A stretch of DNA of 64,000 nucleotides from Heterotrichella gracilis. Taxonomy: Eukaryota; Sar; Xanthophyceae; Tribonematales; Xanthonemataceae. The notes below the pieces were generated by a model. That model did not search any database and was not told the origin of the DNA. It was given only the letters and a program-made list of their open reading frames with translations. Of the stretch, positions 3,001 to 61,558 are shown one piece after another (positions within the stretch are counted from its first letter, which is position 1; each line of letters begins with the position of its first letter). Where the stretch lies: positions 229,794 through 293,793 of the forward strand of contig JAULBX010019965.1 in NCBI GenBank assembly GCA_032358255.1, written 5' to 3'. A program made the translations under genes and the position numbers.

Positions 3001-4749
3001 CCAAAGGTCTCCCTGGCCATGCAGCTGGCGCCCGCCTCCGATGCCTGCCGCGCGCAGCTGGTGCTGACTGTGGAGCAGCTGCACTGTGGGCTGAGGGCAG
3101 GGTCTAACCAGGCGCAGCAGTTGCAGGATGGCGCGGGGCCGCTGAACGTTGAGGTGCGTGTGGGGTTTTGAGGTTGGGGGGGTTGGAGAAGGGCGTGCGC
3201 TCAGGGTTTGGGTGTACGGTTTAGGATTTGGGATTCAGGGTTGAATGGCGTGGGCAGCAGCTGGTGCTGACTGTTGAGCAGCTGCACTGTGGGTTGAGGG
3301 CAGGGTCAAACCAGGCACAACGGCTGCTGGATGGGACGGGGCTGCTGAATGTGGAGGTGCGTGTGGGGTTTGCAGGTTGTTGAGGTAGTGCCTTATGTTC
3401 AGGGTTCAGCTTGAGGGTTTAGGGTTGAATCAAGAGGGTTTAGGGTTGAATCTCGAGTCTGCGATTTTGATGTGTAATATTGTGCTGACAATGTACTCAT
3501 GCTGACAATGTCCACCCTCCCCCCCCGCAGGCCTCCTGCCACGCCATGCACATTGCACACTGCACAGGCAGCGCTGCTGCAGGCGGACTCCCGCAGCGGC
3601 CCATGGGTGGGGTCCCCACGGCCACCGGTGCCCCCCCCGCCCCCTGGCTGGTGCAGAGCCCCCCCGTGTACCTCACAAACACACACAGCCAGAAGGTGAG
3701 GGGGGCGTCTTTGAACGGGAAGCGGGAGGGGTTGTGCTTCTCACATGGGGGATAATTGTGTACATAATCATGTACATAGGACAGACACAGCACATGGCCC
3801 CCATGCGGGAACGCCAGGAACTGACCACCGCAGGGATGGTGCGCCAGCAGCCCAATTATTGCCGTGCCGTCCTTGTGCCCACACACCAACCCCTCTTAAC
3901 GCAGAACTCTACCAAAGAACCCCATAAAACACTCACTCTCTGCTCACCCACCACCTTCCCCCCCTTTGCAGGGCGTGCCCCCTCCCCCCTTCTTCCGCCT
4001 CGCCATGGTCCGCCCCCCCCTGCAAACCGCGGCCGAGCCCGGCACCCTGCGCGCCGAGGTGGCCCCCATCGACATCATCCACCAGCAGCTGCCATTGCTG
4101 CAGTGCGTGAGGTTCATGAATGCAGCCTGGCCCCCTTACAGCTTTGACCCCCTGGTGGTGAAGTCGGCTGTGTCCTTCAACGAGGTGGTGCGGGACAGGG
4201 TGTTTGGCGCGCGCATGGGCCACCGCCACATCAACACGCAGCTCAGCACGCACCTGGAGGTGGGTCGGTGGTAATCTGCATGGGGCAGAAATACATTGAT
4301 GATTGATATCAGGATGAGCCTGGGGATGGGGCGGCGTTGCCTACTTCTCAGAGTTTGTGCAAACTAAGTACAAAACTTTGCGCTGCTTGCCACGAGAATG
4401 GCCTGTTTTGGGCATGCGGGAATGGAGCCAATACTGATTGTAAGGGTCCCTTGCTGCAGCTTGAGGTTGGCGATGTAATAGACTATGAAGAAATCAACAA
4501 ATGTAGTAATAATCTAATATTCGCTTTGTTTGCAGCTTGAGGTTGGCGACGTGCGCCTCATCCTTCCCTGCGGGGACCTGCCTGCCAAGGAGGAGGACCC
4601 GGCAAATGCGCCGCATGGCCGCGCGTTCCTGCGCCAGCGCTCCATGGCGGGCACCAGCGACGATGAGGGCGGGGAGGAGGCGCCCTGCATGCTGGTGCTG
4701 GCGCTGGGCCAGTTCACGGTCACCTCATCATGCAGGGGGCTGGGGCCAG
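1..4749 (+). CDS. VPS13: VPS13 exons 1-10: extended chorein / N-terminal groove region
   Basis: Exons 1-111 (partial), 644-769, 984-1197, 1525-1765, 2126-2298, 2556-2697, 2881-3153, 3531-3695, 3972-4259 and 4536-4749; residues 1-648 of the visible product. The first exon may begin at 24 after a CAG rather than run off the edge. QYLLRRLGYLVLRGLEVEL, the WNCSTQVSW strand and the EGDIAQFRWWAW segment resemble the amphipathic strands and helix of the VPS13 N-terminal region that follows chorein. Phases chain without conflict: 111 leaves one base, 769 one, 1197 two, then zero. The intron after 3153 carries an in-frame copy of the last 99 nt of exon 7, and the intron before 4536 repeats the first bases of exon 10 at 4460, so one of these may be used alternatively. 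Confidence 0.82.
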
Positions 4750-7700
4750 GTGCGGGGTGCAGGGTGTTTGGGTGAGGGGGGTGTTTTCAGGGTAGGATAA
4801 GGGTGCTCATGTGGGCATGACAAATGGCCCAGTATAGCAGTAGGTGTATACAGGGTAGCTGGTGATGCGGCAGTATTTAAATCAAAAGTACCCAGTATTA
4901 ATCCAGTATGCCAGTATGCTTCCATACGGTTACTCAATATGTTTGTTGGCGTGCCATACTGGCATGGGGAGCTAGTATGGTGATATGGCAATATGGTGCC
5001 TTGCACCTCCCCCCTTTTGATCTTCATGTTTGATTAAAGTCAGTAGGGTAGTAGGGCTGTATGGTAGGGGTAGGGGGTGGGGTGGGTGGGGGGAAGGCAT
5101 CATGCCAGCCACACAAGGGGGGGGGGTCCTAGGCACCATACAGCCATACAGCCATACAGTGCCTGTAAGATACCCATATCAAGTGCCTGTTAGGGTTGCG
5201 ATTTAGGTTTTTAGGGTTTAGGCTTTAGGGTTAGGGTTTAGGGTTTTAGGGTTTAGGGTCCAAGTTTTCGAGGCTGATATGGCGGCGGTATGGCGGTATG
5301 GTGCCTTAGGTACCCCCCACATATTCATAAGGCTGTATGGTGATATGACGGTATGGTGCCTTTACCCCCCCCCCTATTCTCTTGGGCTGGTATGGTGGTA
5401 TGGCAGTATGGTACCTCATACACCCCCCCCCTTCTCCATTCAATAAGAGGACAAGAATATATCTTTGATGAAAGGCTTGTTATATATATATTTTAATGCT
5501 GTACATACGGCTACCATACAGGCAAGGCTGTATACACATACTGTCATAGTGGGCCAACCCTCGTGGGCATGGGAGGGAATGTTGAGGCAATTATTGGTAC
5601 ATGTGCTGTGTAAAGTTTTTCCTTGTTAGGCTGAGAGTATACCTATGTACGGTAGTACTTTGCATTTTACTTGTATGAATTCCAATGTTTGCATAAATAT
5701 TTGTATGAATTTTAACGCACAACCCATGGTGTGTACGCCCGCTTTCCAGCATGCGTAGTGTTACCACTTTATACCGCATGCCAATCAGCGGGTCCTCTGC
5801 CATTCAGGTGCCACCATGGCTGTATCCAATGCAATCCCAGAAGGCGCCATTTCCTCCCCTCCACCCGCACCCCTGCAATCCCCCTTCCAAGTCATTGCAG
5901 CCGCCTCCTCCCCCTTCCTGGCCCCAGTGCCCCCCTCCCCCCTCTCCCCCATCTCCCAGCTGTTCGGCAAGCACAGCCGCACCCCCTCATCCACACCCTC
6001 ACACCACAGCCGGCGGCTGTCTCAGGTCAGTAAGGTGGTTGAAAATATACTTGGGATTGCATTTAATATTGTAATTGTCTTGTAGATGTATTTGTGATTG
6101 TAATTTTGAGTTGGATTACATGCATATTAACAGTCATCGTTGCGTACACAACACCTAGGGAGGTCTTCCTCGACCCTGTGTATGGCCGTCATGCGCGCCG
6201 AAAGGTCCTTGGTAACCACGTCAGTGCATGTGACCTAAACTCCCCCTAGGGTCGGTGACTCTACCAAGCAGCACGCACATATCTGGCACTGCGAGTGTAT
6301 TGAACCCTCCTTACAAAGGGATTGAATCGCTTTCGAGAGGGTGAATGCTACAACTGGTAATCCCTCCCCTCCTTCCATCATTTCGAGCAATAAAATACTT
6401 CAATTTTTTAAATGTGTTGTCTGCCGTCCCAGGTTGAGTCAGTCCTGCAGCAGGAGGGCCGTAAGGCCACCCACGACCGCCTGTCCTGCCACCTGTCCCT
6501 CGAGGCCTTCATCACCAAGCTGGACACCGCAACCATGGAGGTGGAGGAGCGGGTGCCGGTGCTCAAGCCATGCTACGTGCAGGTAGGCAGGCAGGCATGA
6601 AAGATCACACTGGCTGTGATCAACTATCGCCTCGTATTCATGGGGTTCATGGTTTTCTTATTTACCTGGGATTAATGCACCCAAATTTTAACATGCATAG
6701 TCTGTTTTCTACAATAGAATCAGATGTGTAAGTATGTATACATGTCTTTTAGAAATTCCCTGTGAAACTTTCCTGTGAAACTTTTCCAGCTGCGGAACAA
6801 AAAGATACAAATTCATAAGACAGGTAAATATGTTTACCCGTCTTTTTAACCCTGGTTTTATGTTCAGTCTTATAGACCAACTTGTTCATTCTCTTTGCAG
6901 GCGCACCTGGACCAGCAGGTTGAGGCCGCAAGGGACAGCGTGTACAAGCGCGTGGTGCAGACGCGGCTGGTGACCTCAGTCATCGATGTGCAGGTCAGCC
7001 AGTTTGTGAAGAAGGAGCTGCAGGGGCTGGTGCACTACCTGGCGAGGTCCTCCATACGCCTGTCGGAGACCGCCTTTGCGCACCACTTCAAACAGGTAAA
7101 GGGAACACTTCGACGAAAGGTACTGGGCAGGAAACCCTGCCTAAGGTACCTACCTAGGGTATCTGGTGGAATCTGGTGGAATTTGAAAGGATAACTTTTT
7201 GAAACAGAGAAAGTAGGGAATCCTTGCTAGGGTGGGTAGTGACCTGCTTGGCCAGCAGGCTGTCAGGAAGTGCGCACTACTGTAGACAGGCAATGCAATT
7301 GTGTGGATGAAGCAAAGGCAGGGAACTCATCACGCTCGCACACCACTAGCCAAAAATGGAAATATGAACAGGTCACACCAATTCATGCCACACTGTCCTC
7401 TACATGCAGGAGGACAGGGATCCCGACCTGGTCCCCCAGCAATCCCAGGAGCGGAAGTCTGCCCTGGCCTCTAAGCCCAGCATGCTGAGCGCCTCAAAAT
7501 ACATGACCAAGGACCTGAAGGAGCTCAAGCAGCGCATACACAGCGGGGAGCATGACCCTGCCGCGTCAACGGTGTATTCCACGCAGCAGGCAACCGAGGC
7601 CAGCGAGACGGACATCCCGTTGGAGGTGAGGGAGATGTGTAGGGTCTAGCGTTCATGCTGTCAAAATTGTCGTGAACAGCACGCATGTATACAATCTGTA

Positions 7701-10700
7701 GATCTTTGAAATCACTGGTTGACATTTTGCAATACATTAAAAAGCTGCTGCTGTCAAGCCAGCGCCTGGGGCCAACGTACCCCCTTCTCCCTTTGCACCG
7801 CTTCATACGCCGTGCATTTGATCGTGCACTCAACCCCCACCGCAGGCCATCCACGGCGCCGAGCGGCGGTACGGCCTGGTGTTTGCCATGCACCTGTCGG
7901 TACCCTCGGCTGGGGTCACCTTCCTTGAGTCTGAGGACATGGCCGACACTGTGTATGGTCTGGCCCGGGAGCTGTTCAGGGTGCAGCTGGAGCGGGTGGG
8001 GGCATCGGTGGCGGTGGAGGACGGGGTGCAGGACGTGAGGTGGGTGTGGTAGGGTGCGGGTGGTAGACCACATTGAGTAGGTTGGGTGTTGTGCGCACCA
8101 TTATCATCGACAATTACACACGATCACCAATTGATTACATGCATTGGAGCAGCTGGGGGTTGGTCAAACACCATTGGCGGCGTTCCAACACCTCACAGTG
8201 CGTGCGCCCGCTGGGTATCAACTTCCACAAGCAATAATAATACTAATACTAATAATAATAATAAGATTCAATATTATTATTAATAATCTAAGCAACCTGC
8301 AGGTTTGCGCTGGGCGCCATCGGCATCGACGACCTCACCATGCCCGAAAACTGCTACTGCCACCTGCTGGCGCCCACGCCCGCATGCGTCAACGAGAACT
8401 TCCGGGGCGACGGGGGATTTCTGCGGCGGGCATTCACTGCATGGCGCCTGCTGGTTGCGCGGCGCAGCGGGTCCAGCCGCAAAGCGCGGGAGGCTGCTGA
8501 GCACGTGCTTGTGGGTTCGGATGCGCAGCTGGCGGGGCATGTGTCGCTAGGTGCGGGGATTGGGGGTGGATTTGGGGGTGCACAATGAGGACCAGCAGAA
8601 ACCATGGAATTTCTTTCAATTGTGGGAATAAGGTGTGGGGGGGTATTGTTTGGGTATAATTTGGCTTGGGTGCGGCGCAAAGGAGGTGGGGCACAATATG
8701 ATTCCTCCTCAACCTGCAAACCCTTACTCCTAAAAACTCTTGCCCCCCAGGCCAGCACCAGGTGAGCGTCTCCCTGAGCAGCAGCTTCTTCAGGAGCACG
8801 CTGGAGCTGGCCACACTCACGCGTGCCATCGACTACGCACACACGGTCATGGACACAGCGTCGCCACAGGGGGACAGCCCGAGGGCCGTGCGGGGGTTGC
8901 AGGAGGCGCCATCTCCAACCGCGGCGCCCGACTCCCGCAGGTTTGTTACTTATTTAGCGCTGCACCATTGGATGGACTTGTTTTATGTTGCCATCGTGCT
9001 GAACGACTTGGATTCTTGTGTCATAATTTATGAGTTTTTCGGTTCACGCTCGTGCTGAATTGATCCCTCCACTCCCTCCTGCCTTCCCGCAGGATGGTGC
9101 AGCGACAAGGCTCAGGGGTGCGCATGTCCATTTCCACCCCTGGAGGGCGCACAGGCAGAGCCAGGGGGGTCAGCTTTGTGGAGGCGGGCCAGTCCAAACC
9201 TCCCACCGACAAGAGCAAATCGGGGACCGCTGCGGTTCCCGCCCCGCGCAAGCCCCTCCTCTGGGGACGGGCGGTGAGCGTGGAGGTGACGGTGAATTTT
9301 GCGCACTTCAATGTGGTCACCCGGGGGGAGTGCTTCGCCACTGTGTTTTGGGACAAGATCGACGGCGTGGTGTATGCGGATGCCCGGCGTGAGCACAACG
9401 AGCTGCAGCTGATGTGTGTGGGGATGGAGGTGGCTGACAAGCTGGGGAGCAACCCCCACTACCGCACCATCGTGGGGTGCTCGGGGGTGGATGGCGCCGA
9501 GATGAACCAGATCCTGGTGCAGGCCTACCACGGGAAGGTGCAGCATATGGCGACGCAAGGGGGGTTGTTTGCGCTCAACCTGAGCGAGCAAGGTATGAAA
9601 AGCAAAAGGGGAAAGAGTAAGCTGCGTTTGGCCCTACATGCAGGGGCCCTGTAGCATGGGGCCTGGCCGGCATCTTTGACTATCTAAGCTATGGAGCAGC
9701 TATGATTTGGCGATGGGGCATCTGCCACGATTGGTTGGGTGATGGTGACTTATGGAGCGAATGAATGGTGTCTGTTTTGTGGCCATGGTTGCTATAGCTG
9801 TCACGAGATCCTTGCACAGCCGGCCATCCAAGGCACCTATTCAGGCCATTTGTTGGCCATCAGAAGCGCAGCGATGGGTTTCTTATCCATGTTTTTCCAA
9901 TCCCCACAGAGTCCTCCCGCAAGCAACGCCGCAAGGGCGCTGATGGTCTGCGGCGGGAGCGCCTAAAACCCCAGGCTAGGTTCCAGACGGTGGTCAAGGT
10001 GGAGGCAGAGGCGGTGCAGCTCACCATGTTGTGCAGGTCAGGACGTGTATTTTTGCCATGATTATGAATTGAGCTGAATTTAGTTGCAAAACCCAAAGCC
10101 ATTTGGGGTCCTTTTACTATTCGACTATCTGCAGATTAAGCGCATTTGGAATTCCTGCTCCATCCAAGGGAGGAGGGTGGCCCAGTAGTGGCCCAGTCGA
10201 TTTTACAAGAAACCTGAAAATGAACTGTGGTCCTTGGTGCAGGTTCTTCAAGGACCTGGGCTATTTTGTGGATGAGGTCAAGCACGCCCTGGGATCCCTG
10301 ACCGCCGACGCCATCCCTAGCGATGGCGAGAAGCCGCCCACGCCGCACCCTGCCAGCGGGGACGGGGGCGCATCCTACCAGCCCATTGCTGAGTTCCAGT
10401 TCCGCAGCTTGCGGGTGGATGTGCCTCGCCATTCTTGCTCGGACGAGTTTTTCTCCATCGCCATCCCCGACGCCAAGGTGGTGGTGCGCGCATCCCCGGG
10501 ATTCGTGGCGGAGCGGCGCCAGGTATGCGTTTGCTTGATATCGCATATGTCCGCTGTTCGTCAGTGCTCTTGCAATGCCGCACCAATTCTGCTCTTCTAG
10601 ATGAAATTATGAAGAAATGAGCAGAAAACCAATGCAATTAATGCAATTATTGCAAGGCAGTTAATTATGCATGTACCGAAAATTGCCGTTAATATATTTT

Positions 10701-13700
10701 CGATGTCACGCTTTCACAAATGTGTATGTCATTTTTTTTTGTGTGTATGGGTACTATCTTCTCATAGACCCCGTTCCCACATTTCGCATCTCATTCCCCA
10801 GGTGTACGAGACCCGCCCCCCGCCCGAATACGCGCGCCACCACTCCATGGCGTTCAGCAAGCACGCGCAGGGCCGCGACTGGGCGGATGTTCAGCGCCAG
10901 ATCTGCCAGCAGCAGCTGCACTGCCGACCAGGCTACTTTGGCTACGCCACTGACGTTGCCGCGCGCACAGCAGCCTTCAGCACCAGCGGGATGGAGGCCA
11001 TGTCGGATATGCTGAAATTTGAGGCGGATTTCTACCGCCAATTTGACCACTTTCAGGGCGAGGGTGGGACGGTCCCCGGGACTGCGTTGGCTGAGCTGGC
11101 GTCTCCCAAGGTGTGAGGGTTGGTGGCATGTGTTTATGCATTTAGTTTCAAATTCTGCAAAGTAGGCCTCTCCCCCTTTCAAGTGCTGGTTTGGAATAGC
11201 ATGCAAATATATGGCTGACTCCAACGGTCGACCCCCCTCCAACGGTCGACCCCCCTCCAACGGTCGACCCAGCCGTTGGCTCAGCACCTGAGTTTGAGTT
11301 GAGTCTTGAGTTCAACTAAGCAAGGGGTCGCAGGTTCGAATCCTAAGGGTAGCGATATTTTTCGAATTTCCCTGAACTTTGCGACGGGATAAAATGGGGA
11401 GCACGAAAGTGCGGTAAGCGGCACGACTGGTTGGCCACCATCTGCCACACTCGAAAGAGTGTCAGTTAAGCCTTGGCTCTAGAACTGGGGTGAGGCATAC
11501 CCAGACATGCTAACCTGGCTTCGAAGCTGGAAAGCAAATACTTACTTACTTACTTATATGGCTGACTAGCCAGGGTACTTTTGGTAACCGTTTGCCTTAT
11601 TTAATATGCATATGGCATGAGGGCCCCAGGATGGCTTTTGCTGTTGCAGCCCTTAAGACATCCCCCTTTTTGCCTTTCCTAGGTGTACTGGGGCCAGCAC
11701 ATTGCGGCAGAGGATACCGCTGGGTGCGGTTGCCTGTCGCTGCGCCAGGTGATGGAGTCGGGGGATGTGTTGGTGGCCGTAACACACGCGGATGTGCCGG
11801 ACTGCAAGGTGGGTAGGGGGGCAGAATTTGGGCCCAAAAGACAACTGGCGGTCGTAGCCTTTTGGTGCCATGTGGTAACTGCTGTGGTAAAGGTTGTTAT
11901 TTGCTAGAGTGCGCTTGTGGTTGCAAGGTGTTGACTTGTGAAGGACAGGACTGCATAGCGGATGGATGCCCTGGGGACAGGCATGCAATTTTAAATGTCA
12001 CAGGGGGTGTTGTAATGGATGGACATTGTCAGTTAGTAGACTGAGATGTGATGCAACACACCGTGCGCCATGCCACTGTCACATAGTACTCCCCCCTTGT
12101 CTTTCTCAGGTGTGGTGGCCATGGGCCAATGCGGTGTTTGGCGAGCTGCACTTCAGCCTCATGATGGCGGTGGTGTACGAAAACGCAGCGGAGCCCTCGC
12201 ACTTTGCCCCCCCCGCGCAGCCGCTGGTGCCCATCGGCGTCCCCCTGCCCTCCGCCCCCCCTCCTCCCGATAAGCTGGGGGTGGCGGAGGGTGCTGTTGT
12301 GCGGTGGGGGGTGCAGATCCACACCCACCGGGTGGATGCCATGGTTGAGATGCTGCCCAGGGCAACCAGCATGGCAGGCAGGGGGAGCGCGCTGGGCGAG
12401 GTGAGGGTACTGCGGGTGTGGGGGCGGGGGAGGGGAGGCATCTATCTCATAGAGGCTTATACTCTAAATCACAAGAGCACGGTTGTACCGGTTAAATAAA
12501 ATATAGTTGCATGTATTGATCAGCGGTTGTACATTTGCAGGCGTCTCTGGCCGGGTGCCAGCTTGATGTGCGAGGTTACAGCTGCGGGTCCATCAAGATA
12601 GTGCTGGCGGCTGCAGGGGCAAAGGTCACGGACCACAGGCTGTCAGAGGTAAGGAGGGAAACCAGCTAGGATAGCTGATTAGAGAAAAAAATGAGGAAAC
12701 CGTCTAGGGGAACCATAGGGTGTTGAAGATAGAACAAAGGCTAGACACCACAGGTTGAATGGCTTGGCAGTTGCTGGCTCGTGTGCTAAACCTTGATGGG
12801 GGCCTACAGGTTGCCTTTGGTCTCCCCGTTTGTTGTGTTCATTCTCCTCCCGCCGGGAAATTAGCCTCCCTGCACTGCTTCCCATCACATCCCCGTGATT
12901 TCTCCAACCGCAGGAGACAGGGTACGCAGTCCCCGTGATGCACGTGCGCCCCCTTGGCGCCCCCTCAGACCAGCCTGGCAGCACCACAAGCACCTCGGGC
13001 CTCAGGACAAACCCATGGGCATCAACACCCAAAGGTGGGTACGCCGCACCGCACACCACTTTACACCACACACACATCCCTGTGTGTGAAACTGGTGCAG
13101 GCAGTGGAGGGGCATTAGTTTCGCCACCACAACCGCCGCCGCTGCCTTGCCCATGCACACATCTGGGTGCATCTTAGGTCACTCGCATCCATCATGCAAA
13201 CCTAGTGCCAGGCACCCCCACGTCATAACTATGATCCTTGGTGTGCAGGGTCTGGCGCCAATTCCGGCTCGGGCCGCTTGCGGCGCCTGAGCATGTTCCA
13301 TGCGGGCGAGGCTGAGCAGCTGGGAGACAAGCAGTTTGTGGTGGAGTATGTCATTCAGGGGCTGCCAAATGGACTGCCAGGTGGGGGTGGGTGGCTGGCG
13401 GGCGGGTGGTGGAGATGGGTGGTTGGCAAATGGGAGTGATTGGTGGGTGCTCCAAGGCATTGGGGAACTTCTTTTGGTTCCCTGTTAGCCCTGAGCCTCT
13501 CAACCCTATTAGAATTTCTTGCACACACATAGATTTTGTGCGCGCCGTGGGTGCCCTTCTGTCCCCGGCCTTGAATTTCTGAACCTCTGAGCTTAAGGAA
13601 AACCCTATGCGCCATCCTGACCCGAGCCTGAAAACCCTGGCCCCAGGTCCCCACGTGGCGGAGGTGCTCATGCGCGGCGCCAGCCTCAAGTGGCCCTACG

Positions 13701-16700
13701 TGCTGCAAACAGACTTTGTGCGCGACGTGAGCGGCTGCTTCTCAAACTACTTTTACCAGCCCACATGCCCAGCCAACCCCCCTGGGGCCAGCGCGCGCTG
13801 GATGTATGTGAATGTGATCTCGGAGGAGGGCCACCTGCACCTGCCCATACCGGAGGAGGCGGAGTTTGGGCTGAGGGAGTGCTCAAACATGGTGGGTGGG
13901 ATGGGCGGTTTCGGGGGTGTGGGGTGGGGTGGGATTGGTGCTTGAAGCGGTTTACTACCCTTTGTGCATGTGTTGCACTTTTAATTACGGGTGGTGTGCA
14001 CCGTATTACCGTGTTCCTTGTGCGTGGCTGTGCAATGAGTGTCGTGTTTGGCACCATGTGCACACCAACCATAAACCCTAGCACGTGGTATACAAAGCCG
14101 GCGACCTCATCCTAGCCCCAACCCCCACACCCTAAACCCTTGCGTGTGGTTTTTTGCAGCTGGTGCACGGCGGCCTGGTCCTGGCCTGGCACAAGCTGCG
14201 CCTGGGCTACTTCTGGGGAGGCAACTCTGAAACCATGCTCAAGGTCAACGCAGAGGGGCTGTACGCCATATTTCGAGGGGAGGGGGAGCGCGGAGGCAAG
14301 CCGCTTGACCTGCTGCAGCCAATGGAGGGTGCGGTGGATGTTCAGTGGCGGTCGCCCCCCGGCGGCGCGCACAGCGTGTGCGTGCGTGCGAGCAGCAGCG
14401 AGGTTGCGCTGCACCTGTCCTTCCAGCAGGTGTACCCCATGCAGGTGGGTGGTTGAGGTCCCGATTCATGCACTGGTGAAAGCGGTCTGTCCTTCATTTT
14501 CTTATACCTCAGCGAGAGCATTGCTCCGTGCCAAAACCCCTCAACCCTAGAGAATCCAACCCCCTTGATGCCAGGTAGCCATCCGCCTGTCTCTGAGAAC
14601 ATCGCCCTGTGCCAGTAACCCTCAACCCTAAAGGATTCTACCCCCCTTGATGCTAGGTTGCCACCCGCCTGGTGTCCGAGAGCATCGCCCTGTGCCGCCG
14701 CCAGCGCGAGGACTGCATGTCAGACATAGAGCCAACCACATCTTGCATGGCCAGCCACTCGGGGCCCTTCACCCGCCAGATAGGCATCAAGCTGGATGGC
14801 TTGTGCGTGCTGCTGATTGATGACCGCGCCTCGCACGGCATTGAAGTGCTTCATTTGCAGCTGGCTGAGCCCAGTGTGCGGTGGGAGGAGGACCGGGATG
14901 CGGAGGGTGTGCCGCCGGTGGTGCACTTTGGGGTCAAGGGGGCGCTCAACGTGAGGGTTTGGGTTTTTGAAGGGTTGGGGGTTGCGGAAGCTTGCATCTG
15001 GGAAGAACAGGGCTCTTGGTTAAACCCCAAAAGTTTAGGGTTTTGGACGGACTGGGATGAGGATTGTGGGGGTTTGCGGAGGGTATAAGATTTCAAGATG
15101 ACATGAATACCTGTAAAAGATATATCTCTTTTCTATATTTCTTTTTTTTGTCGTCGTTGTTCTTTACAGGTGGCATCACCCTTTTCACCCATTTCCACCC
15201 CTTGGCCCCCTGCAGGTCTTGTTCCTGAACAGCGCCATTGACAGCATGGAGCCCCTGGTGGAGCGGTGGCCCTTCCTGGCATCATGCAAGCGCCGCGGGG
15301 CCAACCAGTCGGTGCTGCTGTCATCAGTTGAGAGGCTAAACATGGTCTTGTCGCCTGCAGCCTTCAGGTAGGGGGTGCGGGGTATGGGGAGGGAGCTGGG
15401 ATGGGATGGGGGCAATTGTGGTGGTCTGCTTGCGGCGTCAGGAAGAGTGTTGCGCTGGGGGTCAAAAACCCTTGATGAGGGTGTGGCCCAAGCGGTCGCT
15501 GCTGCTGTCCTTAGTGGAGAGGCAAATGGTCATGTCGTCAGGTAGGGGTATGTGGGTGCAGAAATCCTTGGCTAGGTTGTGGCTAGGGCACCATGAGCAG
15601 GGCTCAACCTAATGGGCACCCATTTTTGCATTCCATAAGTAAAATACTTGGTTTCCCTTGGGCAGATCCCTGGGCGACGCCACCTCCTTCGTCTCCCTCC
15701 TCACCTCACCCGCAGCACTGCTGTGCTCCCTCCCCTCACGGGCATCGGTACCCGCGTCAGCCAACCGCAAGCGCAGACCCTCCAAGGTCCTGTACTGGCT
15801 CATCAACAAATCGGGGCTGCACCTCAGCTACTGGGTGGATCCCGGGGGCGGCAAACCCGGGAGCGATGGCCAGGGAGCAAATCCCAGGGAGGAGGGTCGT
15901 GCGGGGATTTCGGGGCACGTTTTGGCTCCCGGGGATGAGTCTGAGCTCCATGTTGAGCCGGCTGAATCCACCGTGATGCTGCCAGACACGCAGGCGCAGG
16001 TAAACTCCTCAACCCTAAACCCTAAGCAGCTCCATGTTGGGCCCGCTGAGTCAATGCTTATGCTGCTGGGTATGCAGGCGCAGGTGGGGGTTAGGCTTAG
16101 GCTTGCGGTAGGGTTTAGGACTAGCAGGACAGGCAGGTGGGGTTGGGGCGGGGGTTGGGGGATGAGGAGGGGTATGTGGAGCAGACTGTGCTGCATTTCC
16201 ACCAATGGTGTGCGCACAGTCTGCTCATTTGAACCAAAGCGAATGTGGCAGCAACCATATTAGGTACATTGCCGCAGACTGAAGGGGCAATGCCCAGTGT
16301 GCGCACGGTATACCAGTGGACCACCAGGCCCAAACCCTGCACAAGGGTGTCAACCCCCACCCCCTGCCCTCCATCCCCAGGTGAAGGCGCGCACCATCAA
16401 TCTCCAGTTTGAGGGCGGGTGGGGCGCTGTGAGCGACGTGATCATCGACAAGGTTGGCAAGTACTGCTACCTGGTCAAGGCGCAGCACTCGGACGCGGCG
16501 CCCATGCCCATCATACTGGACGTCACGCTGGATGTGCGCACTAAGGTGGGGTGCTGGGACAGGGGTGTACTGGACCAGGTTTGCAGCTCTGTGTGTAGGG
16601 TGTTGGGTTGCAGGGGTAGGGTTTACGGTGTAGAGATCAAAACAGTGTACGTCTTTCCATTCCCGGACCCCTTGGAGGTGATAACCATCCACTCCCACTA

Positions 16701-34807: not shown

Positions 34808-34860
34808 GAGTCACGAAAACAATATTTAATTCCTCTGTAAACTTGAAGTCTTGACAAATA

Positions 34861-48400: not shown

Positions 48401-49296
48401 TTCCCCACCTCCCGTTCCTCCCCTCCCCACCTTGAGCGCATTCTCCTCCTCTTCCAAGTTGAGCGCATCCAGCGCCTCCCAGGCCCCGCCCTCAGCCCCC
48501 CACCCCGGCAGCGCCTTGCTCTGCTGCTTGCGCGACTTCTTGCAGGGCTTGGGGGGCGCGGGGGTGGTGCGCAGGTGCGTGGTGCCGTGGCGGGCCGCCT
48601 CTAGGGTGTGCGCTAGGGCAATGAGCTTGATGTCGACGGCGGAGAGGGCGTGCAGGTCGCCAGTGGCGCGCGCAAACCGGACGACTGCGGGTGGTGGGGT
48701 GGGTGGGATGGAATGGGAATGGTGTTGTGAAGTGTAGTGGGTGCTGAGAGAGTGTGGGGTTGCTGACATTGCAGTGGCCGGCATAGGCAAGGCGTGGGCA
48801 TAGGGGAGGGAGTGTGCGGTCCTCGCTTGAAAAGCCGTGTAACAGTGTGGTGGGAGGGGCACAGCGGCGATGGTTTGTAAGGGAGGCACAGGTATGGTGG
48901 GTAGTGGTAGTTGCACCTCCCAAGCGGCATAGCTATGACAGTGACACTAGGTGGCTGCCTAGTGGCCTGCAGGGGGCACACTCGTGTGCAAGGGTTTGGT
49001 AGGGTTTTGCAACCATGCAGACTTTAAGGAGGCGCACCAGCTTTGAGCGACTCCTCGGCAGGCTCCTGGGTGACGATGCCAAAGGGGAGCGTGGCCAGAT
49101 ACTCCCGCGACTTCTTGTCCCGGACCTCGGTCAGCACCTCCGGGATACTGACGGCGGACTGGGAGATCCGCTCCACCCGTATGCCGCCGATAATGGCGTT
49201 GGCGTCCACCACCAGCACGGTTTCGTGTGCGTCGAGGGCGGCGGAGGGCTCCGGCACTGCGGCGTCCGCCTTTGCTATGGTGGCCCAGGAGGCCAT
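45483..49296 (-). CDS. NOB1: NOB1, PIN-domain endonuclease of 40S ribosome maturation
   Basis: NOB1 cleaves 20S pre-rRNA at site D to give the 18S 3' end, in late pre-40S particles. Transcribed exons: 49296-49038, 48684-48431, 48185-47975, 47666-47584, 47318-47207, 46854-46601, 46380-46234 and 45722-45483; they total exactly 520 codons (519 residues). The PIN domain opens with VLVVDANAIIGG (Asp31) and continues IPEVLTEVRDKKSR and ATGDLHALSAVDIKLIALA (Asp104), giving the expected acidic residues. An acidic, low-complexity insert follows, then DFAMQNVILQMGL and the zinc ribbon LRCTACF (Cys383, 386) with FCQRCGN (Cys398, 401), and the basic C-terminal tail ending RRRK. The start MASW is chosen because conservation begins there. 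Introns 6 and 7 contain exon-end copies. Identification is firm. Confidence 0.95.
45846..45922 (-). repeat. Copy of the start of NOB1 exon 8 inside intron 7
   Basis: These 77 bases repeat the first 77 of the last NOB1 exon almost without change (SGRQARTNPILREDELL, KRMPKHKPK), with a CAACAG acceptor in the transcribed direction. The copy runs out after the HKPK codons into intron sequence. The frame is intact but there is no donor, so it is probably not used. Confidence 0.88.
46161..46200 (-). repeat. Copy of the end of NOB1 exon 7 with donor site
   Basis: Forty bases repeat the exon 7 3' end (GTRFSLPKPK in the real exon) including a functional-looking GTGGGT donor, 73 bp downstream of the true donor in transcript direction. 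Between them is the telomere-like tract GGTTTAGGGACTAGGGT. Confidence 0.82.
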
Positions 49297-50409
49297 CGTG
49301 GGGGGTGTCACGAGATTACGGCTGGAGGTGGGTTGGCCGCCAAGGGTTGTGTATATGCATGCACGTGGGAAATGCTGCGGGCGGTGCTCAAAGGTGGGTG
49401 TACAAGTGCAACGCGGGCGTTTGCAGCCCGCCAAGGGATGTATCACGCTGTAACGCGGCTCTGTGTTCAAGGGGGCGTCTGGCAAAAGTTGGAGCTATGG
49501 TGAGGACTGTGCTGGCGGTTGTTGGGCAAGGTCACTCGTACAAGCATAGGCACGTCACACCACAACGCGAGGCTTTGTTTGCAGCTACACAACTTGCCTA
49601 TTTAGGCTCGCACCCTCGGTTTATCGCAGGTTTCGGGTGTTGCCGAGCATGGCTGCAGTGGGGGACTTGATCCTGTGACACTACCCCTTGCAGCAGGCCA
49701 CCATGCCCGCTGACACCATGGAACAGGCTGCAACTCGCCAAGCACTGCTCACCACACGCTACGAACGTTTACAGAAGCCAACTTCGTCGCGATGCTCCAC
49801 ATCTAAAAGGGCGTTCGACCACAAATACTGACCACAAGCTGCATACACCACTTTAAAAGAGAGTACAACTCAGTTGTCGCGTAGTGCCTGGGCAAACACC
49901 CAAACTAGAGTCGAAACCTCCACGGACTTGTGTCGGGCCAGCAATCAACAGCGCAGCCTGGGCTTGGGGAGGAACAACTAGGGATAGTAGAGACCGTACA
50001 ACATGCTCGGGCTTAGCAAAACTGTGCCAGCGGTGAGTTGTCAGGTCATGACACACCTGTGGTTCCACCTGTGGTGGCCACACCCTGCAGGGCTCGTTTA
50101 CCCATGTTTCTATGTTGAATTCCTACTGCTTTTGCATATAGGCATGCGTGTTCTGCATACCTTCCACTGCGGAGGTGGTCCCGCCTGTCCCAGTGTTGTC
50201 TGTGGCATATGGTCATGGTTCGTCTGAGCCGCGGGGGGTACTCGGTGTCCACCTTGTTATTCACAATTTCTAACAAATTCATTTGTCTGGAACCCTCTGC
50301 ACACACGTGCTTCTCCCAGACGAAGGCCGTGCACATCATTCTCTGCAAAGGCCAAGACAGGCATTCAGCAGCGCTTGGACAGCAGTCACTCTAGGGAAGG
50401 AGGCTTAAT
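49297..50409. promoter_or_regulatory. Divergent intergenic region between NOB1 and the carotenoid dioxygenase
   Basis: NOB1 (minus) and the dioxygenase (plus) are transcribed away from each other, so both promoters should lie in this 1.1 kb (or 1.5 kb if the tentative first dioxygenase exon is wrong). I see no convincing TATA box or named element. No other gene is visible. Confidence 0.5.
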
Positions 50410-53400
50410 ATGCTGGAGAACTCACAGACTCTTGTTTTGATACAGGGCGTCACCAACGCCAGGGCCCTCTGTGGTGATACTACCCACAAGCCCTGCCTGG
50501 CAGGTACCACAACTCTAAACCCTCACCCTACACCATGTGCACATACAGTATTCACCAGTGCGTGCAATGGGGACGATGCCTGCCGTGCTGTTCTCATACG
50601 GACCGCCACTTTGTTGAGCGCATGCATACCTTTGTGTTGGTAGTGTGCAGTCCCGAAGCGTCCGTCCTGTCCTTGCGCACAGCACCGAGCTAGCACAGTG
50701 GTAGAACCCCTTTTAAGGCAAGGGTTTCACTAGTCTATTCTCCTGTATTTATGTATATGGGTACCCATACCCTGCAGGAGTGGCGCACACCCCACCCGCC
50801 AAGCCACGTGCCCCTCGCAGCCCCCAGCGGCCTGGTGTCACATGCAGCGCAGTCGCTCCCCCTGCAGTGGACCGGGTTGCAGGCAGCGCCTCCACCTCGA
50901 ATCGCTTCACCCAAGAGGAGTACGCCAAATTTCTGACGGGGTACAAGTCGCAGTATGTGGAGCGCGACTACTGGGTGGATGAGAGCAGTATAGAAGGTAG
51001 GAGGGCTGATGGAGCTTTGCAATGATGTTTATCAATGCATTTATCATAAAGGGATGCAAATTTGGGATGTACCGATGTGCCTCCAAGTAAGTAAAAATTG
51101 GGACCGAACACTCCTGTCCTTAAAGAATGGATTTCTGTTTTGCAGGCGAGGTGCCCAAGGATTTGGAGGGCACCCTGCTGAGGAACGGGCCAGGCCTCTT
51201 TGAGATTGGCGGAGCAGCAGTGCCACAGCCATTTGATGGCGACGGCATGGTAAGCATATTCACTACAAAAACGTGTATCCCTAGGAAGAGAACGGGATGG
51301 CAGGCTTGCTTCCACCACAGCAGATTCACATCGAGGCCCATCATCTGGACGGCATCCATGCCATCTCCGCTGGTGCTGCACCAATTAATGTCACAGATTT
51401 AATCTGTGAAATGTTTTAACTTTGCACAAACTGGTCCCTGCACAGATCTGCATGTTTGCTTTCAAGGACGGCAAGGTGTTCTTCCGCAACCGCTACGTGA
51501 GGACCGAGGCCTTTGTGAAGGAGCAGGCTGCAGGGCGCATGCTGCACCGGGGGGCGTTCAGTGTGGGCAACCCTGCTGGGTGGGGTCTGTTCAACCCCTT
51601 TGATTTCACGGTGAAGGGCATTGCCAACACCGGGGTTGTGGAGTTTGGAGGCAAGCTGATGGCTCTGTATGAGGTAGGCAGCTTGAAGTTGTGCAAGACC
51701 GCAATGGGCCTTCAGCGTTGTAGCAGCAAAACAAGTCACACCTGGCTGTTTGATGTTGTTAATTTGCTGCATGGTGAAGAATCTGCATATGAGCACATGC
51801 CTTATAGTTAATTAGTTACATGCATTCCAGCAATACAGCCAGATACAGCCAGTTCTGGCTGTATGCCTTATGCATGTTTCTGACTTGCAACCTGCTGCGC
51901 AGAGGGACCTGCCTTATGCGCTGGACAAGGAGCTGAAGACGCTTGGCCAGACAGACCTCGATGGCAGCATCGACACCCCACACAAGTTCTTTGGTGCCCA
52001 CTACCGGGTGGCAACCAACAGCGATGGCAGCAAGCGCCTCGTCGGCTTCAACTTTGCTGAAGGTGGGGGCAACGGGCTTCTGACGTTCTGGGAGTATGAT
52101 GAGCAGTTCAGGGCGATTGGCAAGACCAGCGCAAAGATTCCGGTAAGTGCCTCGCCAGCATTGCAACGCACACAGCGAGGGAAGCATGCTCCGGAATGGA
52201 ATGCACATTTTGAAATTTATGACGATTCCAGCCACAACGTCAAAGGGAGTGAAGGGAAAAATTTTATCTGAAGATCCTTCCGTTCTTAAAATGGTTTGGG
52301 GCATGGCATGCATTGTCGCTATTAAGTGGCTTGATGGCTAAACGCTGCATGTAATTGTTTGCTTCAGGGGGAGGAGCTTTAGGCTTCCTCCATGACTTTG
52401 TTATCACACATTAATATTACGTGGGCCTACAATGGTGGGCTTATAGCTTCTTCCTTTACTTTGCTATAACTGACCAATGTCATGTGGGCCTATAGGGGGG
52501 AGCTTTCGGCTTCTTCCATGACTTTGTTATCACAGACCAATATTACGTGGTGGTGGAAAACCCCATGTACCTGGATTTCAAGGACCTGCTCACGCGCTAC
52601 ATGTTTGGGCGAGCCTGCCTTGCCGAGTGCATCAAGTTTGACAGCAACAAGAAGGTCAAGGTCCACCTCATTCCACGAAATGGAACAGGTAATCACTATA
52701 AAGAAAGAAAAATCTTAAAGAGAGAGAAAAAAAACCAAAAATGTTCTACTTATATACATGTGTTCCAGCAGTACAGCCAGATGAGCACTCTGTCCTACAC
52801 CTGGTGTTGCGCCAACCAGCCATGTCATGGCACTGCTTGTATCATTTTCTGCTTGTCATACTGCCTGGTGTCAACGCAGCTACATCAAGTGAGCAGCTTG
52901 AGCATGGTCTTAGGTGTGTTGTTATTGCAGCTTGAAATCATGCTGAGCAATGGAAATAACTAAATTTGGAACAATTTTCAGCACATCACTGAAAACCACA
53001 CGTCGATGAACATCTGCTGAGGTTGCGGGTTGCTGCGCAGGCGAGGTAAAGTCCTATGAGACCGAGGAGTCGTTCTTCTCTTTCCACCACATGAATGCCT
53101 TTGAGGCTGGTGGTGGCAAGGTGGTAATTGATACTGTGGCCTTCCGAGACGGCATCAACTTTGGGGCGTCCTTTGACAACACAGATTTGTCGATGTATGG
53201 CAAACAAGAGGGCAGGTCATCAGCGGTGCGACTGGTGTTGGACACACAATCTGGCAAGGTACGGCATCAGCGACAAAGCCTCTTGAGATCAAGTAACCAC
53301 AAATGCAGAAGTTGTTTCCATTGGGTTTCCATCGCATGCCATGCATTGGATGGTATGGTTCATTACATGCGTTCCAGCAGTACAGTCAGAAGGGCAGTCT

Positions 53401-58613: not shown

Positions 58614-59014
58614 ACAGCTCAAGGTGTTGTGCGGCTGCACAAAAGAAGGCAGCAGTGCCAAAATGTGCGCAAACAGCGCGTGCAAGGTTTGCAGTTCCGT
58701 CAGTCAACCCGTTATTGTTCTGCAAAGGAGAATGGGTGCACGGAGGCTGTGTTTGCGAAGGTTTGCAAGGGCAGTACAAGTTTGAAAGCAGGCTCGGTTT
58801 TTGAGTTTCTGCCTTAAAAGTAGGGCACTTGAGTGGGCAGTTTTGTGAACTGAACTTTCTTCTCCGTGGTTGAAAATAGCCCTTCCCCCACAACTTCTCA
58901 CCCCAGAACCTACTTTGCGAGCCATCCCAAGCGAGACCCGCCAGTAACGGCCTGTCTCTTGCTTCGCGCTTGTAACACCTGCTGCCCACAAGCGCTAGTG
59001 TCCATCACCCCGCA
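58614..59014. promoter_or_regulatory. Short divergent promoter region shared by the Sec14-like and DUF1499 genes
   Basis: Only 401 bp (329 if the longer Sec14-like start is used) separates the two start codons, which face away from each other, so the genes probably share a bidirectional promoter. I see no TATA box. Confidence 0.55.
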
Positions 59015-61558
59015 ATGGCACACGCATCGAGCACTTGGGTGGCACTGCCGTTCACCAGCATCGGCTCCTCTACAAGGAGGGCTTCGTTCCGTGCCCCCAG
59101 GCCTGCCACTGTCTGTAAGGCACAGCAGAATGAGCCGGTGGAGTCTTCTTCCAGAAGGTGAGCATGTGATTGCTTTTGCATGCCTGCATGTGGGAACCCA
59201 ACTACTAGCCAGTCACTGTGAATGGGTGTTTGGGATACGCTGAAGGTTGTCTAGTTGGTTGCAGTTTGCAGTAGGAGCTGTGATGGGTTTGTTCATGACG
59301 GGATGCATAGCTTGCTGGGCTGGTGGTAGGCACACACCAGCAATGCCATAGAACCACTGCTCCTAGACAGCCACTCCTTGTGGGTGTGAAAGACCTCTCA
59401 ACAGTGAAAGTAAGCAATGGAAGTGTCTGTCCTAGGCAATAACCTTAGGGCAATGCACCCTGGTCCTCATCCTTTAAGAGATCACCACAAGGCACCCAGT
59501 TGGCCACGTTGGGCATGGCAGTACTGTGCCCCACACCACTGGTATCCTCTGATGGAATGGCCCATTAAAGCAAACACTGCAACCTTTACAGTCTTTACTT
59601 GGGTAGCTTGTGTTTCAAAAAATGGTGGGGGCACAGTGCTGGGAGCTAAAAGCAACCCACCCAATGAATTTTCCACTAGCCATCGCACCTGGTGGTCCTC
59701 CCCTATTATTCACCTCACCCCACAAACCCGCAGGGAGATCCTCCTGAGCAGCGTCAACGTGGCAGTACTAGGCGCGCTGTTCACTTTCGGCACCACCCCA
59801 CGCCCATCCAACATCGGCGTGCAGGACTACGGTGGTGGCATCAAGACACTGTCCCTGTGCCCCCCCACCCCCAACTGCATCTCAACCGCGGAGGAGATGA
59901 ACGACCCAAGGCACTTTGTGCCAGCATGGTGAGGCCGCACTGACAACTATGATACTGATTGGCACCCAATAGGGTATTTCCTTATGTACTATCTGCCCTG
60001 ATACCCTGTACCAATTGCAGCGTGGACACATCTCAACAACCAAAACCCCAAGCCTGTATCCAATTTACTTGCTGCCCTGGTCCTTGGTCAACTGCAGCAT
60101 GTCTGTTCTTGGGGCAGGTATCATCGCTTCTCACTCCCGCTGCCTTAAGGCTTGGTATATCTGCGACCTCCCCTCACCATCACCCCCTGCCTTGGCTGCT
60201 GCAGGAACTACAACCCCCAGGATGGTCGTGGCATGAAGAAGCCAGCCAGCCAGGAGCAGGCCATGCAGGAGCTGTACGATGTGGTGAGCAGCATGCACAT
60301 CCTGAAACCCTAAACCCTTAACTTTACACCCTAAACAGGCCATGCAGGAGCTGTACGATGTGGTGAGCAGGCTACACGCAATGCACACCCTCAAACCCTA
60401 CACTCTAACCTTTGAACCCTGAACTCTACACTAGGCCATGCAGGAGCTGTTAAGATATGGTGAGCAGCCTGTACACAAATGCACACCCTGCAATCCTAAA
60501 CTCGAAAGCAGGCCATGCATGCATTGCACGATGTGATGAGCACATACACCCTCATGTTGACACGCACCCATGATTAGCACTCGCATGAATGCAGTTCTAT
60601 GACCCAAGCCATACTAGTTGCTACTCCCATGGGAGCACACAATTGCTGTGAAAGCCATCCAGTAAAAGTCCTTTGGCACATACGACACCCATGCTGTTCG
60701 CACATCTACATGATGGAATGGCGCAATGCCTATGCATGCCAATTGCCCTTGTCACCTTACGCTTCATGACCCTGCACCCCGCACCGCGGCATACCATGGC
60801 ACAGTGACATGGTATGCTACGGTGCGGGGTGCAGCCCTAGTGCTCTCCCCGTTACCTCATCTGCACATTTCTTCTCAGTGATACTGGCATTCTGACCCAC
60901 ATGGCATGCCCTCCACCATGGCATCACAATCCTGTACGACAATTGCACTATCCACCCATGGCGATGGCATTACCATGGCATCATCCACGGCAAGATCATT
61001 CAGCATGGCATTATGCCATGGCATCACTCCTCCGATACACGTGCACAGGTGTCTGTCCTCAAACCCGACAACTTCACCCCCACGGTTGTCAAGCGCACCG
61101 ACGATTACCTGTACCTGGAGTATGAGAGCCCAACGTTTGGGTTTATCGATGATGTGGAGTTCTGGTTCCCGGCTGACAAGTACGTGTGTGTATTATTGTG
61201 ATTTTGATAGATTGAATTCAAATAAATATACATTTAAAATCTAAATGTGTTTTGTAGTGATTAATGCAAAATAGTTTGGACATGACCTCCTTAAAACACA
61301 AAATACATGAAAGTGTGATCAGAAAACTCACGAACAAGCTACATATCGTTTTCAGGAAGGGGCGGCTGGCCCATACAGAGGCATCCCTTCCCACATGCTG
61401 CTCAATATTATAGCGCTTCCTCCCCCTGCAGGCCCAACACCGTTGAGTACCGCAGCGCCAGCCGCATCGGTGAGAGCGACGGGGACATCAACCGCAAGCG
61501 CATCAAGGCAATCAGGCTGGAGCTGCAGAAGAAGGGGTGGGTGTCAGTTGGATTCTGA
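59015..61558 (+). CDS. Plastid-targeted DUF1499-family protein
   Basis: Exons 59015-59157, 59734-59928, 60205-60283, 61049-61179 and 61432-61558, 224 residues, stop TGA. The first exon is a typical transit peptide, rich in Ser, Arg and Ala (FTSIGSSTRRASFRAPRP, then ATVCKA). A hydrophobic stretch (ILLSSVNVAVLGALFTFG) follows. DUF1499 signatures are LSLCPPTPNCISTAEE, TPTVVKRTDDYLYLEYESP with FIDDVEFWFPAD, and VEYRSASRIGESDGDINRKR near the end. Members occur in cyanobacteria and plastids, often in thylakoid preparations, but no biochemical role is established. The transit peptide plus hydrophobic stretch suggests a thylakoid location; that is inferred. Intron 3 contains three copies of the exon 3 donor region and a long hairpin. 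Confidence 0.9.
60337..60541 (+). repeat. Three tandem decaying copies of the end of DUF1499 exon 3 with its donor
   Basis: Copies at 60337-60370, 60433-60467 and 60509-60541 repeat AGGCCATGCAGGAGCTGTAC with the following GATGTGGTGAGCAG of the true exon end (60257-60290). Decay increases with distance: the first is identical over 33 bases, the second has an insertion that breaks the frame, the third has several substitutions. CCCTAAACCC-like tracts sit between copies. Confidence 0.9.
60772..60834. ncRNA. Near-perfect 63-nt hairpin in DUF1499 intron 3
   Basis: Arms 60772-60798 and 60808-60834 pair at 25 of 27 positions with one symmetric 2-nt mismatch (CG against TA), closed by the 9-nt loop GCACAGTGA. 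As in the hairpin at 34861-34942, the only defect is a 2-nt internal loop within the stem. It may be an intronic small-RNA precursor or a mobile foldback; no sequence is shared between the two hairpins. Confidence 0.5.

Follow-up and report, generated by a model that had tools for sequence, protein, structure and literature searches.

Where spliceosomal introns come from, how they grow and how they are turned over is an old open question, and few genomes offer visible intermediates. The window analyzed here, a stretch of 64,000 nucleotides from Heterotrichella gracilis, poses this question directly: in a preliminary description, introns of several of its genes were said to contain serial, decaying copies of the adjacent exon ends. 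Are these copies real, and what process could place them at splice junctions?

The copies are real local direct duplications of exon ends, in most cases together with their splice sites. Annotation-blind self-BLAST of the window (offset below 800) yields 47 direct local repeats and 10 inverted ones at scores of at least 20, and 29 versus 3 at scores of at least 30. The direct repeats recover 19 of the 20 intervals initially listed as copies. The sole interval outside these matches, 19643-19718, contains three successive acceptors; the scores are 12 for the first copy and the real acceptor, 10 for the second copy and the real one, and 17 for the first and second copies, equalled by 0, 16 and 0 of 2000 shuffles, respectively. 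Additional pairs, absent from that list, include 24020/24152 (situated within a 45-bp tandem array), 29391/29469, 30854/30937 and 32216/32325.

The preliminary description would have been undermined by own-exon matches no more common than matches to other exons, and this is not what is observed. Among the 295 introns of 341 that were kept (46 were dropped by length or N filters), matches with scores of at least 18 are found in 28 of 590 comparisons with the own exon, in 4 of 2950 comparisons with other exons, and in 2 of 590 with the own exon reverse-complemented; at scores of at least 20, the corresponding counts are 23, 0 and, for the own exon reversed, 1. Moreover, in 207 exons of at least 120 bp, at scores of at least 18, exon starts are copied in the upstream intron in 10 cases and exon ends in the downstream intron in 17, with no wrong-side copies of either kind and no reverse-complement ones. 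The side rule proposed earlier, exon starts copied upstream and exon ends downstream, is thus followed by 27 copies and broken by none.

The gene models were produced by a small self-trained model (264 kb, seeded with exons chosen by eye), which itself calls some copies exons, at least two in VPS13 and one in NOB1, including 3258-3356 and 45871-45923. Repeats with offset above 300, score below 20, or touching unannotated sequence were dropped from the exon-intron counts; 14 repeats were set aside as intergenic, and the four loci L029-L032 also lie outside these counts.

The VPS13-family gene (1..33578, forward strand, extending past the upstream edge of the window; the self-trained model gives it 77 exons) matches in its C-terminal part the human VPS13C chain 9yqp_B (E 1.2e-41) and VPS13_VAB PF25036 (E 2.6e-7). 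It carries 18 exon-intron copy pairs of graded ages, spread over 16 of its 76 introns, with all copies in the gene's own orientation. Exon ends with donors are copied at 3257..3451 (from 3054-3246, with the intron start, 76% identity, offset 203; the miscalled exon 3258-3356 lies inside), 25640..25715 (from 25439-25510, 80%), 27009..27048 (from 26899-26938, 75%), 28944..29007 (from 28867-28931, 77%), 29469..29512 (from 29391-29434, 77%) and 30937..30981 (from 30854-30898, 82%, the spacer containing GGGTTTAGGG). The exon end 15944-16001 is copied at 16028..16085 (78%, the spacer containing CCCTAAACCCTAA); since the gene model extends the exon through this copy, the pair is tallied there as exon-exon.

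Acceptors with exon starts are copied at 4455..4476 (22 bp, from 4531-4552, 95%, with a 54-bp spacer lacking homology to either flank), 14514..14613 (tandem copies for the exon at 14657, 81%, offset 81), 17373..17461 (from 17473-17561, 82%, with a CCCTAA-like stretch), 19092..19213 (two tandem copies upstream of the exon at 19268, 86-87%), 19641..19725 (two short copies upstream of the exon at 19757, with CCCTAAA-like spacers between, the inner copy being weakly supported by itself) and 29577..29754 (from 29771-29948, 67%). The start of one further exon has an outer copy at 16658..16701 (from 16889-16932, 75%, offset 231) and an inner one at 16791..16839 (from 16904-16952, 88%, offset 113), the latter having lost its AG and having a spacer with no clear homology to the flanks (z 1.3 and 2.3). 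The remaining copies derive from exon parts: 15485..15526 (from 15298-15339, 81%, short of the donor by 28 bp according to BLAST and by 14 bp according to exon-intron alignment), 19556..19620 (from the exon-internal segment 19361-19425, 74%, 46 bp short of the donor), 30167..30220 (from 29996-30049, 76%, 14 bp short of the donor) and the short 32325..32348 (from 32216-32239, 92%, with a TTTAGGG-like spacer). Hence the statement that copies always span a splice junction was too strong: the junction lies inside 13 of the 18 VPS13 exon-intron pairs, while five end 14-46 bp short of it.

In the NOB1 gene (45483..49296, reverse strand; human NOB1 E 9.1e-45, PF08772 E 4.8e-21), the intron between 'SLPKPK' and 'SGRQ' has one acceptor-side and one donor-side copy, both on the reverse strand. 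The former, 45847..45939, repeats 93 bp of polypyrimidine tract, acceptor and exon start (45646-45738) at 97%; the latter, 46162..46200, repeats 39 bp of exon end and GT (46232-46270) at 92%. Their spacers, of 108 bp and of 31 bp with GGGTTTAGGG in gene orientation, are each homologous to neither flank. At an exon start of a carotenoid-dioxygenase-like gene of the RPE65 family (PF03055 E 3.5e-11 for positions 52496-52687), a 63-bp unit is present in 2.5 copies (52376..52550, forward strand); as no gene was called there, the region was treated as intergenic and left out of the exon-intron counts. In the DUF1499 gene (PF07386 E 2.9e-31), an exon end with its donor is followed by two downstream copies with offsets 79 and 252 (60255..60542, forward strand).

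The pattern is not confined to the window, being present in other genes of contig C200 and in one C13 gene as well, while C46 is poor in copies, with 2 pairs at 264 junctions versus 40 at 418 on C200. A recurrent process duplicating junctions, as suggested earlier, is therefore supported, with the correction that it is not uniform but depends on the region or the gene. Its supposed lengthening of introns lacks statistical support: C200 introns with copies have a median of 325 bp versus 267 bp without (p 0.39), and those of VPS13 280.5 versus 258 bp (p 0.57). Regions 45600-46300 and 16540-17520, queried for related copies elsewhere in the genome, match only themselves, so no dispersed or mobile copies (introner or transposon insertions) were found for these two regions; the same searches reported not even the neighbouring second copies as matches of their own, and short dispersed copies could therefore be missed.

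The copies decay neutrally. Mismatches at the three codon positions (48 pairs) number 120 of 676, 95 of 671 and 156 of 676, giving a third-position share of 0.42 (bootstrap 0.38-0.46), near our hand estimate of approximately 0.43 for an unconstrained copy compared with a constrained exon. Copies diverge from their originals by 3-34%, and within a match the intron part is the more divergent (mean 0.211, against 0.150 for the exon part; intron higher in 14 of 20 pairs). The claimed growth of decay with distance from the exon is retained in a weak form (Spearman -0.31, p 0.043, 42 pairs; in VPS13 -0.57, p 0.014).

As would be expected of scars from staggered-break repair, direct repeats flank inserted sequence, which in some pairs, though not all, is unlike both flanks. 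Copies at most 12 bp apart are found at 3054, 14514, 17373, 19119, 28867, 52376 and 60257, while spacers homologous to neither flank separate the pairs at NOB1 45646 and 46162 and VPS13 4455. Match length is below 0.65 of the offset in 8 of 13 pairs with at least 84% identity; in a simulated tandem model, the 5th percentile of this ratio is 0.56-0.83 for matches of at least 85%. The simulations set expectations rather than facts, and their parameters were our choice (exon third positions evolving at 0.6 and other exon positions at 0.1 of the neutral rate, 0.15 indels per substitution). In VPS13, exon-intron and intron-intron pairs are found in the ratio 18:2, while the simulated exon-intron share is 0.45-0.66 (p 0.014 for the tandem model, 1.5e-4 for a spaced one); outside VPS13 the ratio is 24:16 (p 0.106 and 0.008, respectively), with expectations coming from simulations over all genes, VPS13 included. 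Hence VPS13 copies are more junction-centred than random placement predicts, and the excess is weaker in other genes. In large part, the side rule and the presence of the junction in the copy result from purifying selection, which tolerates only copies that can be spliced out. Selection by itself does not explain the VPS13 excess over random placement.

A feature missed by the preliminary description is the telomere-like sequence between copies. When the hexamers of 33 spacers are ranked by enrichment, the first seven places go to the seven that make up the CCCTAAA repeat, and a telomere heptamer is present in 16 of these spacers, compared with 16% of position-matched windows from copy-free C200 introns (reached in 0 of 1000 draws). 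With one spacer taken per intron end, the enrichment is located on the donor side (12 of 19 spacers versus 3.6 expected, 0 of 2000 draws), acceptor-side spacers showing no significant enrichment (2 of 11 versus 1.3, reached in 723 of 2000 draws). No exact telomere rotation is among the ten highest-ranking heptamers listed for outer flanks (AAACCCC is tenth), while these flanks are slightly above background (3.8% covered versus about 2.5%), seven of them containing a telomere heptamer. TTTAGGG-like matches at contig ends suggest that TTTAGGG is the telomere repeat of this genome. The head-to-head order TTTAGGG..CCCTAAA was considered as proof of healing at two ends, and its counts are mixed, making it weak evidence only: one register gives 139 versus 26 genome-wide and the other 347 versus 242 (overlapping matches included), but in 304 kb of sequence the count is 6 versus 8.

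The reading that we prefer, and to which we give slightly less than an even chance, is recurrent local break and repair that duplicates short segments, often with telomeric filler, splicing then filtering the survivors. Each event would start with a staggered double-strand break, or two offset nicks; filling in of both ends would double the stretch between the nicks, some 20-150 bp in direct orientation. Telomerase might add telomeric repeat to the ends, or such repeat might be captured there, before joining yields X-filler-X, so that a non-homologous spacer would often be left between the copies, on the donor side enriched in TTTAGGG or CCCTAAA; other pairs would be plain adjacent tandem duplications. 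Selection would remove events lying wholly within an exon, while those bearing a donor or an acceptor could survive because the spliceosome can excise one copy and the filler as part of the intron; which copy is spliced is our supposition. Such excision would force copies of exon starts upstream and copies of exon ends downstream. The intronic copy would then decay neutrally, and a series of copies of graded age would result from repeated events. In favour of this reading stand the direct-only orientation, the side rule, the neutral decay, the high-identity pairs of non-tandem structure, the telomere-like spacers at donors and the lack of matches elsewhere for the two regions queried. In addition, CTAAA, CTAAC and CTGAC peak 25-35 bp before acceptors in the manner of a branch point, which suggests that the C-strand repeat could be spliceable. 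Against break repair speak the several pairs that lie in adjacent tandem with hardly any filler, the acceptor-side spacers without significant telomere enrichment, the mixed head-to-head order, the VPS13 junction excess, the absence of a significant difference in intron length, and the fact that no pre-duplication allele was seen; telomere-like sequence could also cause fragility instead.

The main rival to break repair is plain slippage with selection: ordinary tandem microduplication, by slippage or unequal exchange, at random positions, followed by purifying selection and neutral decay, with no junction or telomere step. Adjacent arrays at 14514-14696, 19092-19306, 52376-52550 and 60257-60506 are of this kind, random placement already yields 0.42-0.59 junction-spanning duplications among viable units in simulations, and genes other than VPS13 show no significant departure from the tandem model. 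This account is nevertheless doubtful, as the VPS13 ratio departs from its expected share of 0.63-0.66, the telomere-like motif is denser between copies than outside, and several high-identity pairs have spacers unlike either flank; as the whole story, pure tandem duplication misfits these pairs.

A bolder form of the preferred break-repair reading, which we find rather unlikely, makes telomeric healing of staggered breaks a standing source of intron sequence: each event would double a junction and wedge TTTAGGG/CCCTAAA between the copies. The C-strand would supply a branch point (CTAAA) and a C-rich tract, while the G-strand would give the intron a G-rich beginning. Scars of this kind would be spliceable from the outset, and many intron ends may have originated as telomeric fillers long ago.

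The telomere-like tract could also be the cause of duplication and not its filler, if G-rich tracts inside donors are fragile (forming a G-quadruplex or R-loop) and provoke duplication of exon ends. Introns indeed begin G-rich: the density of sense TTTAGGG heptamers is 7.09 per kb over their first 100 bp, compared with 0.19 over their last 100. Only donor-side copies have a significant telomere link, introns struck at both ends number 3 versus about 0.6 expected (P 0.018), and C200 exceeds C46 in both tracts and copies. We consider this quite improbable, since duplication of an exon end with its tract should leave a second tract past the intronic copy, while the outer flanks have no exact telomere heptamer among their top ten listed, though seven flanks contain one; moreover, acceptor-side copies exist, mostly without such tracts.

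Selection is very unlikely to be maintaining the copies as functional alternative exons, as decoy splice sites or as poison exons. Splice dinucleotides appear intact in many copies (judged by eye, with no systematic count), and the gene model accepts some, such as those at 3258-3356 and 45871-45923, as exons, but the third-position share gives no sign of coding constraint (saying nothing on non-coding roles), identity drops with distance, and the human NOB1 chain aligns with the duplicated segment a single time; mutually exclusive exons are thus unsupported by both the codon-position counts and the NOB1 homologue. An assembly artefact or haplotype collapse, suggested by an N run within the serial array of L031, is hardly conceivable for copies that are 3-34% divergent, occur on C200, C46 and C13, and obey the splice-side rule 27:0.

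Parts of this picture have precedents. In young Daphnia introns, 55 of 90 new introns contain internal repeats ascribed to staggered breaks, and a passive trend toward longer introns is proposed (PMC4202315). The intronic direct repeats and repeated terminal exon bases are shared with our case, but the exon-derived repeats in that study are 4-12 bp long and tied to intron birth, while ours, in another lineage, are matches of approximately 20-195 bp at existing junctions with donor-side telomere-like spacers. As in the potato RdRp gene (PMC4974935; review PMC3443670), the duplication crosses the intron-exon boundary carrying splice signals; the potato case is a single event creating a new intron, unlike the dozens of decaying events within existing introns seen here. 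Mammalian interstitial telomeric sequences inserted at breaks have duplicated flanks at 6 of 130 loci in rodents and at 4 of 25 in primates (PMC2246262, Table 1), resembling our telomeric repeats between duplicated flanks, which exceed controls on the donor side; the sections of that paper used here describe no link to splice junctions, while our duplications are tied to exon ends. For relatives of Chlamydomonas, green algae with long introns, the driver of intron length is called unknown (PMC8226300), and junction duplication is not put forward in the passages of that paper considered.

For annotation, these observations are a warning, as such copies are easily miscalled as exons, which our own gene model did. 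For intron evolution, a single gene, VPS13, displays 18 pairs of graded age, and the spacer signature points to break repair; with population or related-species sequence, the model of break repair with telomere capture becomes testable.

Annotation-blind self-comparison of the window (score at least 20) yields 47 direct local repeats versus 10 inverted ones, and recovers as direct repeats 19 of the 20 intervals in which the preliminary description had reported intronic copies of adjoining exon ends; in the twentieth, with three successive acceptors, two of the three pairings are supported when compared with shuffled sequence. Over 164 kb of contig C200, including the window, there are 84 direct versus 32 inverted repeats at score at least 22, just 8 of the latter being non-hairpins, while 100 kb of contig C46 at the same threshold contain 8 direct and 11 inverted repeats, all hairpins. 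When introns are compared with their own exons and with other exons, the control proposed in the preliminary description, introns match their own exons at score at least 20 in 23 of 590 cases and other exons in 0 of 2950, the own exon reversed giving 1 match in 590. Among the 28 own-exon/own-intron matches at score at least 18, 18 have their start no more than 4 bp from the junction, and 21 sit in the junction-proximal half of the intron. Exon starts are indeed copied upstream and exon ends downstream: among the 207 exons with a length of 120 bp or more there are 10 copies of starts in the upstream intron and 17 of ends in the downstream intron, with no wrong-side copies (both combinations) and no reverse-complement copies (all combinations). 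The exon-intron copies are not due to chance.

The genome containing C200 is eukaryotic (68.5 Mb, 903 contigs), with plant-type TTTAGGG-like repeats, suggestive of a green alga, at several contig ends (C140:3-72; C526:1-69; C46:403873-403923 of 404050; C607:200530-200600 of 200630). The gene model, self-trained on the sequence itself, comprises 17 models with 343 introns (341 in later analyses, from models with score at least 80), the splice consensus AG/GTGNG for donors and TGCAG/G for acceptors, and median exon and intron lengths of 146 and 277 bp. The window carries a long plus-strand VPS13 gene (VPS13C match, E 1.2e-41), a minus-strand NOB1 gene (E 9.1e-45; PF08772), an exon of the RPE65/carotenoid-dioxygenase family at 52496 (PF03055, E 3.5e-11) and, at 58-63 kb, a gene assigned to the DUF1499 family. 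The same junction-copy pattern is seen in the acetolactate synthase small subunit gene (locus L031 on contig C13), where an N run at 4839-4938, within a serial exon-end array, may be an assembly gap. Other repeats in the window are an interspersed repeat in a VPS13 intron (4817-5563), containing a TTTAGGG-like stretch and having relatives 70-92% identical on about eleven other contigs, an imperfect palindrome of 240 bp, likewise within a VPS13 intron (18682-18921), and a direct-repeat array, with several repeats at roughly 295-bp spacing, in a region without a gene call (38216-42056).

Some copy pairs form adjacent tandem arrays, others, including the youngest in the window, have the structure X-spacer-X. 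One minus-strand NOB1 intron, between SLPKPK and SGRQ, bears copies of both its ends, 93 bp (97% identity, spacer 108 bp) on the acceptor side and 39 bp (92%, spacer 31 bp) on the donor side, and neither spacer resembles either flank; the 98% pair of L031, on the other hand, forms part of a tandem series. At the search sensitivity used, the NOB1 region and VPS13 16540-17520 each match only themselves genome-wide. Plain slippage plus selection is one of the two main rival explanations.

Reading the spacers revealed GGGTTTAGGG or CCCTAAACCC between copies, e.g. in the L031 serial array. Exact rotations of the telomere-like heptamer (TTTAGGG/CCCTAAA) occur in 16 of 33 spacers versus 16% of position-matched windows in C200 introns without copies (0 of 1000 draws reach this value). 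With one spacer per intron end, the signature is on the donor side (12 of 19 versus 3.6 expected, 0/2000 draws), the acceptor side showing no significant enrichment (2 of 11 versus 1.3 expected, 723/2000 draws). In a motif-free ranking of hexamers by enrichment in the spacers, the first seven places are taken by the seven that make up the CCCTAAA repeat. Among the ten highest-ranking heptamers listed for the outer flanks, none is an exact rotation; nonetheless, seven outer flanks contain a telomere-like heptamer.

Telomere-like heptamers are also frequent in introns generally, at 5.67 per kb (2.94 sense, 2.73 antisense) versus 0.50 in exons, shuffled introns giving 0.39 per kb for the sense set. 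Introns of C200 exceed those of C46 both in telomere-like coverage (2.2% versus 0.6%) and in the frequency of duplications (40 pairs for 418 junctions against 2 for 264; p 3e-7); the other main rival is that telomere-like tracts act as fragile sites. On C46, the 100 kb at 300001-400000, with eight gene models, are poor in both junction copies and telomere-like motifs. The branch-point-like CTAAA, CTAAC and CTGAC peak 25-35 bp upstream of acceptors, and therefore the C-strand repeat could serve splicing. Introns of both contigs are G-rich at their start (G fraction 0.335 over the first 100 bp) and C-rich at their end (C fraction 0.352 over the last 100 bp); sense TTTAGGG lies close to donors, and CCCTAAA nearer to acceptors. 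Among about 50 plus-strand matches listed, of 242 found genome-wide for the pattern AAACCCTA-N0-30-TAGGGTTT, 16 are 19-mers with a fixed 3-base gap, AAACCCTA-NNN-TAGGGTTT.

Identity drops, though weakly, with increasing distance from the real exon, as was originally described. In 48 exon/intronic-copy pairs (offsets up to 500), mismatches at codon positions 1-3 number 120, 95 and 156; the third-position share, 0.42, is close to the value expected if the copy drifts freely while its exon stays constrained (about 0.43, a hand estimate), and unlike what two coding copies would give. The human NOB1 chain gives only one match to the duplicated NOB1 segment. The intronic copies look like decaying scars.

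A gene-internal duplication would be tolerated only where the message stays unchanged, and therefore no dedicated mechanism is required to explain the side rule: for a duplicated unit with an acceptor, splicing to the downstream copy would restore the message, leaving the upstream copy as intron, while for a unit with a donor the upstream copy would be used and the downstream one would become intron. In simulations where units are placed in VPS13 at random, followed by a viability filter and decay, exon-intron pairs constitute 0.63-0.66 of detected pairs for tandem units and 0.45-0.49 for spaced ones. The observed ratio of exon-intron to intron-intron pairs is 18:2 in VPS13 (plus 1 exon-exon), a significant excess (p 0.014, tandem model; 1.5e-4, spaced model), and 24:16 elsewhere (plus 5 exon-exon; p 0.106 and 0.008, respectively). 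Therefore some junction preference beyond selection is left unexplained, chiefly in VPS13, though, contrary to the original claim, the copies do not always span a splice junction: a junction lies within 13 of 18 VPS13 pairs only.

The closest known system is new introns in Daphnia (PMC4202315), which are ascribed to staggered breaks, contain direct repeats and are suggested to lengthen passively, but there the exon repeats are just 4-12 bp. Two other papers describe a single duplication crossing an intron-exon boundary in potato RdRp (PMC4974935), and telomeric insertion at breaks in mammalian interstitial telomeres, with flank duplication in a minority of cases (PMC2246262). No title or abstract beginning found in the literature, searched mostly outside subscription sources, joins telomeric filler with splice-junction duplication. 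The order test for two healed ends gives 139:26 and 347:242 genome-wide and 6:8 in a smaller 304-kb set, so the overall picture is mixed. Directly observed are the duplications themselves, their orientation, the side rule, the decay and the spacer signature at donors. We favour an origin of the copies in staggered breaks, which would be repaired with fill-in and with telomeric filler, presumably supplied by telomerase or by capture; splicing, with a presumed choice between the duplicated sites, would then filter which duplications persist.
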